From assembly GCF_003258315.1 (NCBI RefSeq), contig NZ_CP030032.1, positions 3,350,501 to 3,414,500 of the forward strand: 64,000 nt of DNA, written 5' to 3'. Below, one piece after another: positions 38,976 to 48,103 of this stretch; position 1 is the first letter of the stretch, and each line of letters begins with the position of its first letter. A program made the translations under genes and the position numbers. Source of the DNA: Bradymonas sediminis (GTDB lineage: Bacteria; Myxococcota_A; Bradymonadia; Bradymonadales; Bradymonadaceae). The notes beneath the pieces are model-generated. The model was not told the origin of the DNA. It worked only from the letters and a program-made list of their open reading frames with translations, and made no database searches.

Positions 38976-40901
38976 TCAGTCGACTTCCATCACCTCCTCC
39001 ACCACCCCGCCCGGCGCACTCCCCGCCGCGCCGGCGCCACCCGCGCCAGCCTGCGCGCTACCCTGCTCATAGCTCACATCCGTCGCGCTCAGCGTCACCC
39101 CGACCGTCGCAACCCCGACGCTATTTCCGCCCAGACCGCCCACACCATCGCCGCCTACGCCACCGTCGCCGCCAAAGCCGCCTTCGCCGCCCCGACCTGC
39201 GTTCGCGCTTTGGGCTGGAGTATTCGCACCACCAGCCGCACCGCTCTCCCCAACACCGCCTTGCCCACCCCCACCGCCGTCGCCACCGATACCCAGCGTG
39301 ATCGCGGTATCGACCACTTCGATCGCCTCGCCGACCACCACGATACCGAAGGAGCTTCCGCCGGGCTGACCGTTCGCGCCCGCTTCGCCGCCGCAGCCGC
39401 CCGCGCCCCCCTGGCCGCCGTTGCCGCCCAATTTCAGGCTCGCGCCGCTCTCGTAATTCCCGCCGGCGCCGCCGCCGCCGCCGCCACCGCCATCGCTGCC
39501 AGCGCCTGGCTCGACGCCCACCGCAGGCGTCCACGCCCCGGCGCTGAACACACCGATCACATCAGCTGCTGGCAGCGCGCCATCGGCCCCCGCGTCACCC
39601 GACGCGCCGGTTGTGCCGTCTGCGCCGTTTCCGGCGGCGCCGTTGCATTTATGTTGACCACCTGCGCCGCCAAGGCCTTCTTGCTCTCCAAGATTCGCCA
39701 AGGCACCGTCCAAACCGGGTGTCGCTTCTCTACCGTTATAACTTGATGTGGTACATGGCTTTTCACTTGAGTTCGCCACGCCACCCGCACCACCTACCGG
39801 AGCCGTACACGCGCGTATTCCTCCCGCCGCGCCCGCCTCACCGTCAGCCGCCGCACCGCCGATGATCTCCGCGTTCTGCACGCGCAACCCCGCCGAGTCG
39901 GTCGCCCGAAGCGCCAGAGTCGACGCGCCCGGGTGATTCTCATTCTCCGCGCCAAAGCCGACGATCGTGATATGATCAACCACGGTCGCGTCGCCGATGC
40001 CGGCCGCCTCCACCGTGACAAACTCATTGGCGCTCGCGTCATAGTCGCCGGGCGCCGCCACGATGCGGCTGACCTCGGTGTCCGGAGCGCGCCCGCTGAA
40101 GTCGGCCACATATCCGCCGTACAGGCTCACCCCGTTTTGCAATGCGACCGCGCCCACATACTCTCCGCCGGCGACCAGCACCGTCGAGCGCCCCTCCTGC
40201 GCCGCCAGCTCGAGCGCCTTGGCCAGCGTCGCCACCGGCTCGCCCGGGAGCAACCCGGCGTTGGCGTCGTCCCCGCTGCTCGCCACGAAAACCGTGTCCT
40301 CCAATATCCCGTCCACCCCGTCGCAATTGCCGTCGACCCCCGCCGCGTCAATCGCGTCCTCCGGGTCGCTCATCTCACACTCGCACCCGTCGGTTGCGTC
40401 GCCGTTAAAGTCGACAAACCCCTCAAGGCACGCGCTCTCATCAATCCCGCAACTGGGCGCCTGCTCGCCCGCCACGCACACCGGCGCCCGATTGGTGGCG
40501 TCCGACTCGCACACCGTCCCGCACGCCCCGCAATTGTCGGCGTCGGCCGCCAGATCGACCTCACAGCCATCCGACGCGTCCCCGTTGCAATCGGCGTAGC
40601 CCTCATCACACGTATATTCACAGGTCTTCGTCGCGCTATCGCAGGTCCCCGCCTGGTGTGTGCCGCCGGCGCAGTCCGCGTCGACCTCGCACAGGGCGTT
40701 GGTGGTATCCGGCTCGGTCTCGGCGTCGGTGGTGTTGGAGTCAACGTCGGAGTCAACGTCGGACTCAACGTCGTGACCGGCATCCGCGATATCACCGGCG
40801 TCGTTTTTTAATTCCGAACCAGTGTCCTTCTCGTCGTCAGAGCAAGCCGGGAGCGAAAGCAGCACAAGCGCACAGAAAATATAGAGTGATTTACGATACA
40901 T
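38976..40901 (-). CDS. Glycine-rich lipoprotein with Cys-rich and DUF1565-like beta-helix region
   Basis: 641 residues from ATG 40901; the longer frame to 40982 adds an unlikely Cys/Tyr segment. Signal peptide with a good lipobox (LLSLPAC, Cys20). An acidic Asp/Glu/Thr linker follows (to about 80), then Cys-rich repeats (DADCAGGTH, DGCEVDLA, NCGACG; about 70-190). A DUF1565-like segment comes next (DTVFVASSGDDANAG...PVATLAKALELA, about 210-245), then right-handed beta-helix-like strands. The last 270 residues are a Gly/Ala-rich region. It is probably a surface or outer-membrane lipoprotein; the function is unknown. Its composition is extremely biased. Confidence 0.85.
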   Translation of the reverse strand: MYRKSLYIFCALVLLSLPACSDDEKDTGSELKNDAGDIADAGHDVESDVDSDVDSNTTDAETEPDTTNALCEVDADCAGGTHQAGTCDSATKTCEYTCDEGYADCNGDASDGCEVDLAADADNCGACGTVCESDATNRAPVCVAGEQAPSCGIDESACLEGFVDFNGDATDGCECEMSDPEDAIDAAGVDGNCDGVDGILEDTVFVASSGDDANAGLLPGEPVATLAKALELAAQEGRSTVLVAGGEYVGAVALQNGVSLYGGYVADFSGRAPDTEVSRIVAAPGDYDASANEFVTVEAAGIGDATVVDHITIVGFGAENENHPGASTLALRATDSAGLRVQNAEIIGGAAADGEAGAAGGIRACTAPVGGAGGVANSSEKPCTTSSYNGREATPGLDGALANLGEQEGLGGAGGQHKCNGAAGNGADGTTGASGDAGADGALPAADVIGVFSAGAWTPAVGVEPGAGSDGGGGGGGGAGGNYESGASLKLGGNGGQGGAGGCGGEAGANGQPGGSSFGIVVVGEAIEVVDTAITLGIGGDGGGGGQGGVGESGAAGGANTPAQSANAGRGGEGGFGGDGGVGGDGVGGLGGNSVGVATVGVTLSATDVSYEQGSAQAGAGGAGAAGSAPGGVVEEVMEVD

Positions 40902-41430
40902 GATTAGAGCCCCATTTTGATTATTTTTGACAATCCATTCCGAATAACAACAATGATATTTCGCCCCGCCAAACCCGCCCACGGACCGTTAGAGACTTCA
41001 GCGACGACCGACTACGGCGGATGAAGAGTTCCGCAGTCCCTGTCACTAAAAGCGTGCGCACACCCTAAAGTCATCGATGACTCCATGCTTAATTAGGTTT
41101 CGGTTGCTGCCGTCTCACCCCAGGTCATACCGCAAGCTTATTTCCCTAAAAAAACGGTCCCCAGCTGCCCCATCGAATGGGCAACTGAGCGAAAACTGGG
41201 CAGAGCAAAGCAGTTGGCATGACAACTTCAACGTCATGAAACTCATCAAGAATAGAAAAATCCTACCCCGATACTGTCGAGCAAAGTGTGCCCCAAATTT
41301 AGTAGATGTGACGGAGAGCGTCAAATCGGATCAAGTCAGAGTCAAGAGCGGAAGCGTCCTCCAGCGATAGACAGGTGCACCCGCGCTCTAAACACCGCGC
41401 AGGCGGTTTGAAGGGGAGAAAACGCACGCA
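40902..41430. other. Intergenic region with no supported gene
   Basis: About 530 bases, lower in GC than the surroundings. It contains the promoter side of the leftward glycine-rich lipoprotein gene. A 97-codon plus-strand open frame (41077-41370) has no ribosome site, odd composition and no family, so I do not call it. No repeat is obvious apart from an ATTAGGTT octamer at 41091-41098 that recurs elsewhere. Confidence 0.5.
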
Positions 41431-41492: not shown

Positions 41493-42026
41493 TTAATGCT
41501 GGCAGGATTTGCATCGGCCACGCAACCAGACGGTCGCCTGGGTGACGCGAAAGTCGGGGTTCGCGCCCTCAAAGGCTTCGGCATCGGCGATCAAATCATC
41601 CAGGGCGCCTGGCTTCAAAAAGACGTCGAAAATATCGCCACACCCGTCGCAGAGCGCATGGTGGTGCGGCACCACCGTCGGGTCAAAATAGGTCTGCCCG
41701 TCATGAGCCGTAACGCGCGTGAGCAGGCCAATCTCTTCGAGCAATTCCAGCGTATTATAGACGGTCGCCAGCGACAGACTCGGCACGACATCATCGAGGG
41801 TGGCGAAGACCTGTTGGGGCGTGAGGTGCCCGGCGCCGTCGTGGAATATCTCTAAGATCGCGCGGCGCTGCGGCGTCAGGCGAAAGCCCGCATCCTTCAA
41901 GCGCTGCAAACTCTCATCGAGCCCGGTGCATTCGGCTCCCGACACGCCCTCTTCTGAAGACGCGCCCTTCGAATCCTGATGCTCCGCCGAAAGACCAGCG
42001 CTGCCTATATGCGTTATGCTTGCCAT
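41493..42026 (-). CDS. Fur-superfamily metalloregulator, PerR-like
   Basis: 177 residues from ATG 42026. A disordered 34-residue N-terminal extension is followed by the winged-helix domain (FRLTPQRRAILEIF, SLATVYNTLELLEEIGL). The metal site DPTVVPHHHALC...DIFDV has Asp where PerR has Asp85 and Asp104, and the His residues of PerR, rather than the Glu of Fur. CDGC and CKSC supply a structural zinc. It therefore probably senses peroxide by metal-catalysed oxidation, though Fur-type iron sensing cannot be excluded. It lies 55 bases after spoVR in the same direction and before a terminator, so it is the end of that stress operon. Confidence 0.88.
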   Translation of the reverse strand: MASITHIGSAGLSAEHQDSKGASSEEGVSGAECTGLDESLQRLKDAGFRLTPQRRAILEIFHDGAGHLTPQQVFATLDDVVPSLSLATVYNTLELLEEIGLLTRVTAHDGQTYFDPTVVPHHHALCDGCGDIFDVFLKPGALDDLIADAEAFEGANPDFRVTQATVWLRGRCKSCQH

Positions 42027-42081
42027 AATTACCGCTTCTAAACTGCTATATACGCCCGACAAAGGCAGGGTTGCGCCCCGG

Positions 42082-44796
42082 CTAGATCGGCTCGTAATCA
42101 AAAGGCGAATCGCGATGCTCCGTGCCGTCATAGCTCAGCAACGTGCCGCGATCCTCTGAAATTGTCTCGATATTGACCGGACGCTTCCACACCCGATGCA
42201 ACGCCTCAAGCACGCCCTGGGCGTAATCGAAGCGAAGCGGCGTGCCGTCAAACTTGTGGTGGAGCAGCAACTCGCCGCGATTCTTAAAGTTGCCGTCCTT
42301 CACGTAAATGAAGGGTTGACCAAAATTTGTCAACTGCGTCAACAACTTCTCTTTGACCTCGCGGAACTCGCGACTCTCGATCTCCCAATTACCCGATTTG
42401 CGATTATAACCGAAGGTGAACATCTTATTTTCGCGCGCGAACTCCTCGGTCAGGAACTCATCGATAAAGGTCACGTCATTATAGATCTTTCGAACCTCGA
42501 AGATCTTATCGCGCCCCATCCCCAACTCGCGGTCCCAATTCACCTTGCGCTCAAGGTCATCGACCTCTCGCCATTCCTTGCCAAATTTCCCCCGATTCCA
42601 ACGGTCCTCGATATCCCGATACAGCGCCACGCCCAATTTATAGGGGTTAAATTGCCCGGGCGCCGAATACATGACCTTCGAGTTAATATCGGCAAAGTCG
42701 ATGATCTCGGAGTCCTTCAGGACTCTCTCGGTCAGGATTTTTGAGTGCCAATAGGAGTTGTGATTGACGAAACCGCCTGCCGCATAGCGATGCGTCTCGC
42801 GCACCGAAATATCATAAACATCCTCATGCCCGGCTTCGACGCTGACGACTTCGTCGCACCACGACTCCGCCTTAAACCATTTGTGCTCACAGATATATGA
42901 GGCCAGGGCTGCTGACTTTCGCTTGAGATCAAAGCCAATCGCGTCGGCGAATACACCGGCGGATTTCCCCGTAATATGAATGTGCCAGCAACCATCCACT
43001 TGCTCGCGGCGTCGACTCAGGATGCCGAAATTGAGCAGCAATAGTTGAACCTGCTCACTCATGACTTCACTGGAAGTGCTAAGAATCACTCCCTGTTTGC
43101 CGGCATAACCGTCCGCGTCAAAAAGGCCGCGCAAAAAGGCGCTAACGACCGCTTTGGGGGAACGAAGAATGACCTCCGGAATCCTCTTTTCGGAGGCACT
43201 CGCTCCATCGGTCAATCCGAGCGCATCAGTTAACCATTCCGAGAGGTTTTCGGCATGAAAGAGCACACGCCATCGCCCCTCGTCCTTTTTGATGACCGCA
43301 GGGATTCCGAAAAGTTCGCGCCCCATCTCGGCGAATCGCAGGGCATGCCCATGGTCGCCACTGGTAAAGCCGAGGTTGCGCTTGACCCGGCTGATATGGC
43401 CGGCCCCGACCAGCCCACCCAGAAAACAGCCCAGCTCACAGGTAACGGTCGCGGGGATACAAACCGCTCGGCGCTTATTGACGGATTGCGGAAGGGCTTG
43501 ATTCTCGGGCGAGTCGTAGAGTTCGAGCGCTGCCTCGACCGCGCTGGAGCGACGAATATTCGCGCTACCTCGGTATCGGAGCACCGTGCTCAGCGAAACA
43601 TCGGCAGATTCTGCAACATCCTGCAGACTACACCGCGCCGGCGCGCTCCACTCCAGCTCAACTTGCTTCTCAGGCCATAACCCTGCCCCGCCGGAAACCA
43701 GAATCTCATCGCCTTGCTGAATCTCATCGAGGCGCGTCCAGGTTTCGCCATCGGCCTTCAGAATGCGATGATTATTCGACCCGGTCAGCCGCAATCCGCG
43801 ACGCGTGCGCAGCGTAATCGTCTCATGATTGGGGATGATATTATAATCGTAGACATCCTGGGGTTGGTCGCCGTCGGAGACGACCTTGAGGCGACCAGTC
43901 ACCAACTCTTCCATGGTCACCAAACCATCGGAGGTAAAGACCCGCGTGTCCGCTGCCACGCAGGCCCATCCTTCGTTCATGATCTTCGTCTGCCCCTGGG
44001 GGGCGAAATAATAAGCCTCTTCGCGGATGATCGACAGGATATCGGCCTCCCAACCCTCGAGCGGCGCGTTCTCCAGCAAGAACTTCATGACGTCGCGCTG
44101 CGGCTCACGCGGGAAGTTTTTGCGCCGCGCGTCCTCCTCCTCCATCTTGCGCTTCTGCTGCTCGATATAGCTGGACGGGTTAATATACTCGTCCATATAG
44201 TCCTTCGCCTTAAACTTGGGCACCTCGCGCGCGCGCAGATCGTCGCTCTCTTCGGGCTCTTCCGGGCTCTCGCGCTCGATAAAGGGACTATAATAATCGA
44301 TTAGATTATCCAGCGACAAACAGGTGTCGATAAAGTCTTCGACCTTTTCGATCCCGCGACGGTCCAGATGACGGCGCACCCGCGCGCCGTGATTGGCCAT
44401 CTTGTCGACCATCTTCCGGTCGGTTTTGGAGAAATAATAGTTATTCTTGAAGAAATCGACGTGCCCGTAGACGTGCGCGATCACCGTCTTTTGGTCGACG
44501 AGATTATTGCCCTCCAACAGATAGGCATAAGACGGGTCATTATTGATGACCATCTCGTAGATCTTCGACAGCCCGTATTCGGCGCTTTTGGAGAGTTGCT
44601 CGTACTCCATCCCAAAGCGCCAATGCGGATAGCGCGTCGGGAACCCGCCATAGGCGGCCAACTCGTTGATCTGTTTATAGTCGACCATCTCGAAGACAGT
44701 CTCGAAGAAATCAAGCCCGTATTCGTTCTCAGCGACGTCGCGAATATGCTCGATGATTTCACGCAAATGCAGCGGCAGTGTTCGGATAGTTCGCAT
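42082..44796 (-). CDS. spoVR: SpoVR family protein interrupted by an in-frame intein
   Basis: 904 residues, of which 502 are SpoVR (usual family length about 500). The N-extein is residues 1-278 (HLREIIEHIRDVAENEYGLDFFETVFEMVDY, split here only for naming; motifs GGFPTRYPHW and IAHVYGHVDFFKNN) and the C-extein is 681-904. The break falls inside the conserved family motif MNEGWA/SYWHSK. SpoVR was first seen in Bacillus spore cortex formation but is common in non-spore formers in operons with prkA and yeaH, linked to stress and stationary phase. It starts 5 bases after the yeaH stop. Function depends on splicing, described with the intein. Confidence 0.95.
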   Translation of the reverse strand: MRTIRTLPLHLREIIEHIRDVAENEYGLDFFETVFEMVDYKQINELAAYGGFPTRYPHWRFGMEYEQLSKSAEYGLSKIYEMVINNDPSYAYLLEGNNLVDQKTVIAHVYGHVDFFKNNYYFSKTDRKMVDKMANHGARVRRHLDRRGIEKVEDFIDTCLSLDNLIDYYSPFIERESPEEPEESDDLRAREVPKFKAKDYMDEYINPSSYIEQQKRKMEEEDARRKNFPREPQRDVMKFLLENAPLEGWEADILSIIREEAYYFAPQGQTKIMNEGWACVAADTRVFTSDGLVTMEELVTGRLKVVSDGDQPQDVYDYNIIPNHETITLRTRRGLRLTGSNNHRILKADGETWTRLDEIQQGDEILVSGGAGLWPEKQVELEWSAPARCSLQDVAESADVSLSTVLRYRGSANIRRSSAVEAALELYDSPENQALPQSVNKRRAVCIPATVTCELGCFLGGLVGAGHISRVKRNLGFTSGDHGHALRFAEMGRELFGIPAVIKKDEGRWRVLFHAENLSEWLTDALGLTDGASASEKRIPEVILRSPKAVVSAFLRGLFDADGYAGKQGVILSTSSEVMSEQVQLLLLNFGILSRRREQVDGCWHIHITGKSAGVFADAIGFDLKRKSAALASYICEHKWFKAESWCDEVVSVEAGHEDVYDISVRETHRYAAGGFVNHNSYWHSKILTERVLKDSEIIDFADINSKVMYSAPGQFNPYKLGVALYRDIEDRWNRGKFGKEWREVDDLERKVNWDRELGMGRDKIFEVRKIYNDVTFIDEFLTEEFARENKMFTFGYNRKSGNWEIESREFREVKEKLLTQLTNFGQPFIYVKDGNFKNRGELLLHHKFDGTPLRFDYAQGVLEALHRVWKRPVNIETISEDRGTLLSYDGTEHRDSPFDYEPI
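42757..43962 (-). other. Intein in SpoVR (LAGLIDADG-bearing, 402 residues)
   Basis: In-frame insertion covering residues 279-680. Block A starts with Cys279 (CVAADTRVFTSDGLVTMEEL), a B-like motif GSNNHRIL carries His343, and the end VNHN has penultimate His679 and Asn680. The +1 residue is Ser681, so cleavage chemistry is complete. Removal rejoins MNEGWA to SYWHSK, the uninterrupted family sequence. The middle holds two LAGLIDADG-like motifs: GCFLGGLVGAGHI (about 455-468) and FLRGLFDADGYA (about 554-565). The first has Gly where the catalytic Asp belongs, so homing endonuclease activity is doubtful. A LacI-like helix-turn-helix (about 389-420) lies between the two halves. Confidence 0.95.
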
Positions 44797-44801
44797 GGAA
44801 T

Positions 44802-45917
44802 TTAAAGACCTTTTCCCAGGAATTCTTTAATCGAATCGTAGATCGCCTCTCTATTCTTAATCTCGGAGAGAATGACCTCGTCGTCCCCGCCGAATCGCTC
44901 GCTTAGGTCCTTGATGAACTGCCCGGACCCGTAGGGCGACTCTACCTGCCCGTAGCAAAACATATTCGAGCGCGGGATGATCCCCTCGCTCAAGATCTTC
45001 AGGCACTCTCCGGTGTCATCGACCGACCAGTTGTCGCCGTCGGAGAAGTGGAAGGGATAGACATTCCACTCCTCGGGCGGATACTCCTTCTCCAAAATCT
45101 TCAGGCATAATTTATAGGCGCTTGAGATCATCGTGCCGCCGGATTCCCGCGTATGGAAAAACGTGTCGCGGTCAACCTCTTTGGCGGTCGCGTCATGGAT
45201 AATATAACGACTCTCGATCCCCTTATATTGGCTGCGAAGCCAGGTATCGATCCAAAAGGATTCGATGCGCACCATCTCTTTTTGCTCGTCGCCCATCGAA
45301 CCCGACACGTCCATCATATAGATGATGACCGCGTTCGACTCCGGCAGCTCCGTCTCTTTCCATGAGCGGTAGCGCATATCCTCTTTGATCGGCACGATGA
45401 CCGGGTTATCCGGGTCATAGTCGCCGAGCGAGAGCTGGCGTTTGAGCGCCTGTTTATAGGACTCCTTAAAGTGGCGCAGACTCTCCGGGCCGGTCATGCG
45501 CAGGCCGCTATATTTCTGGCGGATCGTCTCGACCCGCTTCTTTCCGCGCGGCTCGATATTGGGTAATTCGAGCTCTTCGCCCATGATCTCGGCGAGCTCG
45601 TCGAGGGAGACGTCGACGTCGAGTCCGTGCTCACCGGCTTCGTTGCCGGCCTCTTTGCCCTCGCCCTCTTCCCCTTCGCCCTCGCCCAGGACATCGCCGG
45701 GCTCGCCTTCGCCCTGGCCAACGCCCCCGGTATTCTTCGAGCCATAGCGAAAACGCGGGATATCGATGCGCGGAATGGGCACCTTGACCACATCCTTGCC
45801 CTGCTTCCCCGTCAACTCACCCTGGCTCATATATTTGCGCAGGTTGCGTTTGATCTTACCGCGCACGATCTGCTTAAAGCGGCGATGATCTTGCTGGATT
45901 TTATTGAGTTCAGTCAT
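44802..45917 (-). CDS. yeaH: YeaH/YhbH family protein (DUF444)
   Basis: 371 residues. DUF444 proteins are VWA-like: here MDVSGSM with the MIDAS pattern (DxSxS) near residue 208, an acidic linker rich in Glu/Gly (about 70-90), and the C-terminal [10 protein letters not shown] block. It is about 122 bases downstream of prkA and 5 bases before spoVR; the same three-gene order is known in Gammaproteobacteria, where yeaG-yeaH is induced by nitrogen and stationary stress. It probably works with PrkA. Function at molecular level is not established. Confidence 0.93.

Positions 45918-46039: not shown

Positions 46040-48103
<2,064 letters not shown>

Follow-up and report, generated by a model that had tools for sequence, protein, structure and literature searches.

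The window analysed here, a 64,000-nucleotide stretch of the Bradymonas sediminis chromosome (genome G000, 5.05 Mb in one contig), carries on its minus strand the gene order prkA, yeaH-type (DUF444), spoVR. The prkA gene (46040-48103), encoding AAA_PrkA and PrkA C-terminal domains, is followed by the yeaH-type gene (44802-45917), the upstream partner of spoVR, and then by spoVR itself (42082-44796), an open reading frame of 904 amino acids without any break; domain content and neighbourhood both identify the host protein as SpoVR. A Fur-family gene (41493-42131, minus strand) lies directly downstream, and because its longest open reading frame overlaps the end of spoVR by 50 bases its translation probably begins at a more internal position. 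The minus-strand frame at 38976-40982 encodes a Gly/Ala-rich protein of 668 amino acids that has a Cys-rich first part and is without a Pfam match.

Anatomy of the SpoVR insert

Residues 279-680 of the precursor form an in-frame insert of 402 amino acids (CVAADTRV...FVNHN) encoded by 1206 nt at 43962-42757 on the minus strand, and its borders are exact, with MNEGWA on the N-terminal side and SYWHSK on the C-terminal side. The sequence-only reading, which had placed an intein splitting this motif at 42757-43962, is confirmed to the base. The N-extein (residues 1-278, ending in KIMNEGWA; 43963-44796, minus strand) and the C-extein (SYWHSK onward, with Ser at +1; 42082-42756, minus strand, stop codon included) match Pfam SpoVR (PF04293) separately, over profile positions 6-270 and 268-406 with 432 bits in total, and the precursor also matches SpoVR_C. 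Deletion of the insert leaves an ordinary full-length SpoVR of 502 amino acids, again as that reading had proposed; an annotation of SpoVR that ignores the intein is wrong in size by 402 residues.

The insert matches the Pfam profiles Intein_splicing (PF14890; 40.9 bits, cut-off 35.8) and LAGLIDADG_3 (PF14528; 63.2 bits). The match to the NCBIfam profile TIGR01445 begins at insert residue 1 and that to TIGR01443 ends at residue 402, with scores both close to the cut-offs: 24.8 bits against 24.5 for TIGR01445, and for TIGR01443 15.3 with the insert alone against 15.6, rising to 16.5, just above the cut-off, in the whole protein. The doubt left by these scores is removed by the homologues described below. 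The splicing residues are Cys1, a block B SxxH (S62-N-N-H65, TxxH being commoner), Asp384 and His391 of block F, the terminal His401-Asn402, and Ser+1.

In the AlphaFold model the pLDDT of the intein part is mostly above 90, while that of extein residues 270-276, just before the junction, is below 50; a sequence search found no solved SpoVR structure. The best PDB matches of the intein, by sequence and by predicted fold, are inteins with endonucleases, namely TliVMA (7qsu)/PhoVMA, PI-PkoII, PI-PfuI, and PI-SceI, and this resemblance together with the PF14890 score points to a Hint fold. The endonuclease part matches I-DmoI-like folds and contains two LAGLIDADG motifs. The Hint splicing fold and motifs, and the position of a two-motif LAGLIDADG domain between the Hint halves, are thus shared with the known inteins, whereas the SpoVR intein differs from those of the TliVMA and PI-SceI type in having SxxH in block B and an extra LacI-like helix-turn-helix segment before the endonuclease, and its host is SpoVR rather than an ATPase, a polymerase or a protein of nucleotide metabolism. 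The extra segment (intein residues ~110-149; 43516-43635, minus strand), which separates the Hint half from the endonuclease, is predicted to form three helices; the LacI profile matches 20 of 43 homologues at E<=0.01, and the window copy only weakly (E 0.0067, under the Pfam cut-off).

The first LAGLIDADG motif (FLGGLVGAGHIS; 43390-43425, minus strand) has alanine in place of the first catalytic Asp (D187A; codon GCC at 43404-43402), and the second (LRGLFDADGY; 43105-43134, minus strand) retains the catalytic Asp284. LAGLIDADG enzymes require both Asp residues for a double-strand cut, so that the endonuclease of the window copy is probably dead and this copy unable to home. Six relatives from the window's class have GAC or GAT at this codon, and the first-motif Asp is present in 61 of 65 complete copies, missing from the window and three others. 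The domain in the window copy may be regarded as a family homologue from which cutting is not expected, and splicing of this copy should be intact. The substituted base, read here from one assembly of the strain, could be a sequencing error.

Conservation and distribution of the intein

A DNA pattern scan for MNEGWA-Cys, with the third codon chosen so that the ordinary C-[FY]-W dropped out, was applied to a collection of ~85,000 genomes, one per species; 96 stretches matched, of which 80 were listed. An intein occupies exactly the same SpoVR site at at least 75 loci (75 of the 80 listed, 63 of them complete), a lower bound given that the scan required Cys1 and a Met before the Asn and left out some third residues. 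The remaining listed loci (L090, L097, L101, L118, and L123) are not inteins at the SpoVR site. The sequence-only reading had called a SpoVR host unusual, which holds for the searchable literature but not for nature, and it had granted that many SpoVR inteins at this site would undo any claim to specialness; with so many loci in a one-genome-per-species collection, that claim falls.

By record title the complete copies come from ten phyla, Myxococcota, Halobacteria (Methanobacteriota), Chloroflexota (Ktedonobacteria), Pseudomonadota, Planctomycetota, Acidobacteriota, Armatimonadota, Bipolaricaulota, Nitrospirota, and Bdellovibrionota, with the qualification that many are from metagenome bins and single taxon labels may be wrong. 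The "Pseudomonadota" copy L084 matches G025, a genome placed in the window's own order. When sampled genomes were searched with a profile built from 43 inteins, matches turned up for 12 of 242 Halobacteria, for 17 of 379 Myxococcota, and for 14 of 47 Ktedonobacteria; within the window's class SpoVR is present in 39 of 57 genomes and the intein in 8 of those 39 (one truncated by a contig end). Judged by these samples, the presence of the predicted intein is patchy and its host range unusually wide, taking in two domains and phages. A plasmid search for the intein returned one partial LAGLIDADG match and nothing more.

In the set of 65 complete copies (63 from the scan, the window copy, and L039), Cys1, the block B His, D384, H391, H401, and N402 are each present in all 65, a count that for Cys1 holds partly by construction, the scan pattern having required Cys, and that for H401 and N402 concerns residues also used to locate the insert end; the block B His, D384, and H391 played no part in finding the copies. 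The residues named in the sequence-only reading (Cys1, block B His, terminal His-Asn, and Ser+1) are therefore not only present in the window but recurrent, the +1 position being Ser in 58 copies and Cys in 7. With insertion site and catalytic residues shared by all 65 copies, a chance origin of the insert motifs is, on this comparison, excluded. Intein-free SpoVRs of the window's class have Ser, Thr or Cys at the +1 position, so the insertion site would supply a ready nucleophile.

Intein length is 389-414 residues in all copies but one of 345 (L082, Thermosporothrix hazakensis; intein at 1086-2120), in which both LAGLIDADG motifs are degenerate and which is apparently heading toward a mini-intein. 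Values of dN/dS (omega) of 0.07-0.18 over the whole intein in close pairs, alike in the splicing and endonuclease parts, argue that most copies have been kept functional. For the window copy compared with L122, omega is ~0.12 over the whole intein, a rough value with synonymous sites near saturation.

No paper pairing "intein" with "SpoVR" or with "stage V sporulation protein" was found in a 5.39-million-paper library that leaves out subscription journals, supplements, and intein databases, and within the literature searched the SpoVR allele is apparently unreported. A survey of 118 halobacterial genomes recorded 24 alleles in 13 host genes, SpoVR being absent (Soucy et al., 2014; PMC4071816). 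Like the intein described here, those alleles are patchy homing inteins, some of which cross domain borders; SpoVR is missing from that table, whereas 12 of 242 halobacterial genomes have the intein here. A second intein of the window's genome (C1:1028135-1029448) lies in DnaE, the alpha subunit of DNA polymerase III (1668 aa; L043:2367-7373, minus strand). It also has a LAGLIDADG_3 domain but a different host, and since the profile of SpoVR inteins does not match it at E<=1e-8 it would be a distant relative at most.

Probable transfer between lineages, and phage-borne copies

Genomes G016, G018, G019, and G020 have the intein whereas G017, of the same genus, is without it, and the same contrast separates G002 from its congener G003; the empty sites in G017 and G003 are scarless at the DNA level. 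A single class contains intact endonucleases, dead ones such as that of the window, and unoccupied sites, which makes it a ready set for study of the homing cycle.

In the intein tree haloarchaea and Bradymonadaceae form one group (support 96, and 100 in a reduced set) that stands apart from other Myxococcota, whereas in the extein tree Bradymonadaceae group with other Bradymonadales and Myxococcota, and haloarchaea with Bipolaricaulota. AU tests reject both a tree in which all Myxococcota inteins are forced together (p-AU 0.0144) and one in which haloarchaeal and Bradymonadaceae exteins are forced together (p-AU 0.0175), these p-values being moderate and the groups having been picked after the first trees were viewed. 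Identity between the window and haloarchaea is 51-55% for the intein and 33-39% for the extein; between the window and its own family the corresponding values are 55-63% and 69-75%. The simplest account of the conflict between intein and host-protein groupings is that the element crossed domains, moving between bacteria and haloarchaea in one direction or the other, and the conflict makes this a clear case of archaea-bacteria transfer. Copies L084 and L126, from the order's other family, group with other Myxococcota, by which placement there are at least two intein histories inside the order.

On nine IMG/VR contigs of 31-335 kb a SpoVR-like protein is interrupted at the same site by a full-length relative of the intein, with 38-42% identity (L143-L149, L151, and L191). 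In the tree these copies form two groups, one of which adjoins the Planctomycetota and Bdellovibrio copies. The second LAGLIDADG motif is present in all six phage copies examined and the first in five, the search pattern having missed it in L144. The prkA gene is found on all eight tested of the nine contigs, and on the contig of a further phage insert, L150. Because prkA and spoVR lie together on viral contigs (G676-G684), the stress module is, as judged by gene content, phage-borne. Three phage contigs were sampled for phage functions: L225 (335 kb) has an endolysin, PhoH genes, and a tail collar fibre match; L226 has phage SSB, UvsX-like recombinase, and DnaB-like helicase families; and on L223 only sugar and metabolic families were seen. 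A paper on a jumbo phage contains the word SpoVR (PMC8504454).

The L150 insert (L150:2001-3224; NEG/C...HN/CATFFHH, in a phage-contig SpoVR) was left out of the same-site set owing to its shifted register and very long branch, and is possibly at a second insertion point in the same SpoVR motif. L152, L162, L164, and L173 were set aside as other alleles, inteins that directly follow a P-loop-like GSGK/RSGK motif in phage-contig proteins of putative, terminase-like character. Annotated phage records gave distant matches only, labelled terminases and polymerases.

Proposed mechanism and alternative explanations

Sequence motifs and profile matches, the predicted fold, the homologues, and the empty sites without scars identify the insert as a cis-splicing intein of class 1 that carries a LAGLIDADG homing endonuclease domain. 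It is read as a new SpoVR allele confined to one site, mobile across phyla and domains, with an endonuclease that is probably dead in the window; a probability of about 0.95 is assigned to this reading. Intein hosts would then include a stress-module protein that belongs neither to replication nor to nucleotide metabolism, invaded at one invariant site. The mechanism inferred from sequence, in its splicing, nuclease-loss, and phage-transport steps alike, would run as follows. After translation Cys1 would start an N-to-S acyl shift, Ser+1 would take over the N-extein, and Asn402, aided by His401, would cyclise, releasing a normal 502-residue SpoVR. Homing into spoVR genes that lack an intein would carry, or have carried, the element from phylum to phylum and between bacteria and haloarchaea, and spoVR genes on phages may serve as its vectors. 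The window copy probably persists only by having to splice. The sporadic presence of the intein and its homing-endonuclease architecture are as a mobile element predicts.

The sequence-only reading had further suggested that splicing may act as a redox or stress switch through Cys1; on such a view active SpoVR would be produced only under certain conditions. The insert does split the most conserved SpoVR motif, so that the precursor is probably inactive, SpoVR belongs to a prkA-yeaH stress cluster beside a Fur-family regulator, and conditional splicing under oxidative stress has been described for other inteins (reviewed in PMC5874633). However, the comparison of copies gives this suggestion no specific support. 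Cys1 is the sole invariant cysteine, with no conserved disulfide partner: among the 65 copies no second invariant cysteine was found, the best being present in 39 at residue 325 in the endonuclease part, with extein cysteines judged only via invariant columns of an alignment. A redox switch would need more than Cys1 and, because every Cys1 intein has Cys1 and no second Cys is conserved, it is possible but unsupported. Close relatives of the same genus live without the intein, and the prevalence of the first-motif Asp fits a mobile element rather than a domesticated switch. Deletion of prkA in Bacillus anthracis made no difference under peroxide (PMC13001217), a result that concerns PrkA and not SpoVR. 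Conditional splicing is considered quite unlikely. A combined account, in which an intein of the PrkA-YeaH-SpoVR module circulates among bacteria, archaea, and phages via phage-borne spoVR and is kept in some lineages, such as that of the window with its disabled endonuclease, as a switch gating SpoVR, is considered quite unlikely.

Decay beyond the endonuclease, leaving a non-splicing intein and a gene that yields non-functional SpoVR, is very improbable. The loss of one catalytic Asp may indicate that decay has begun in one function, but the splicing residues are all intact, the frame is open, the exteins match full-length SpoVR, and the Hint part looks constrained (omega ~0.16 for the window against L122, with synonymous sites near saturation); a pseudogene was considered and rejected. 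Retention of the insert in the mature protein as a lineage-specific accessory domain of SpoVR would agree with its being in frame and conserved at a single site across many phyla, and yet is extremely improbable, given that the insert has every protein-splicing motif, with borders that are exact, and that close relatives lack it and show no trace of it.
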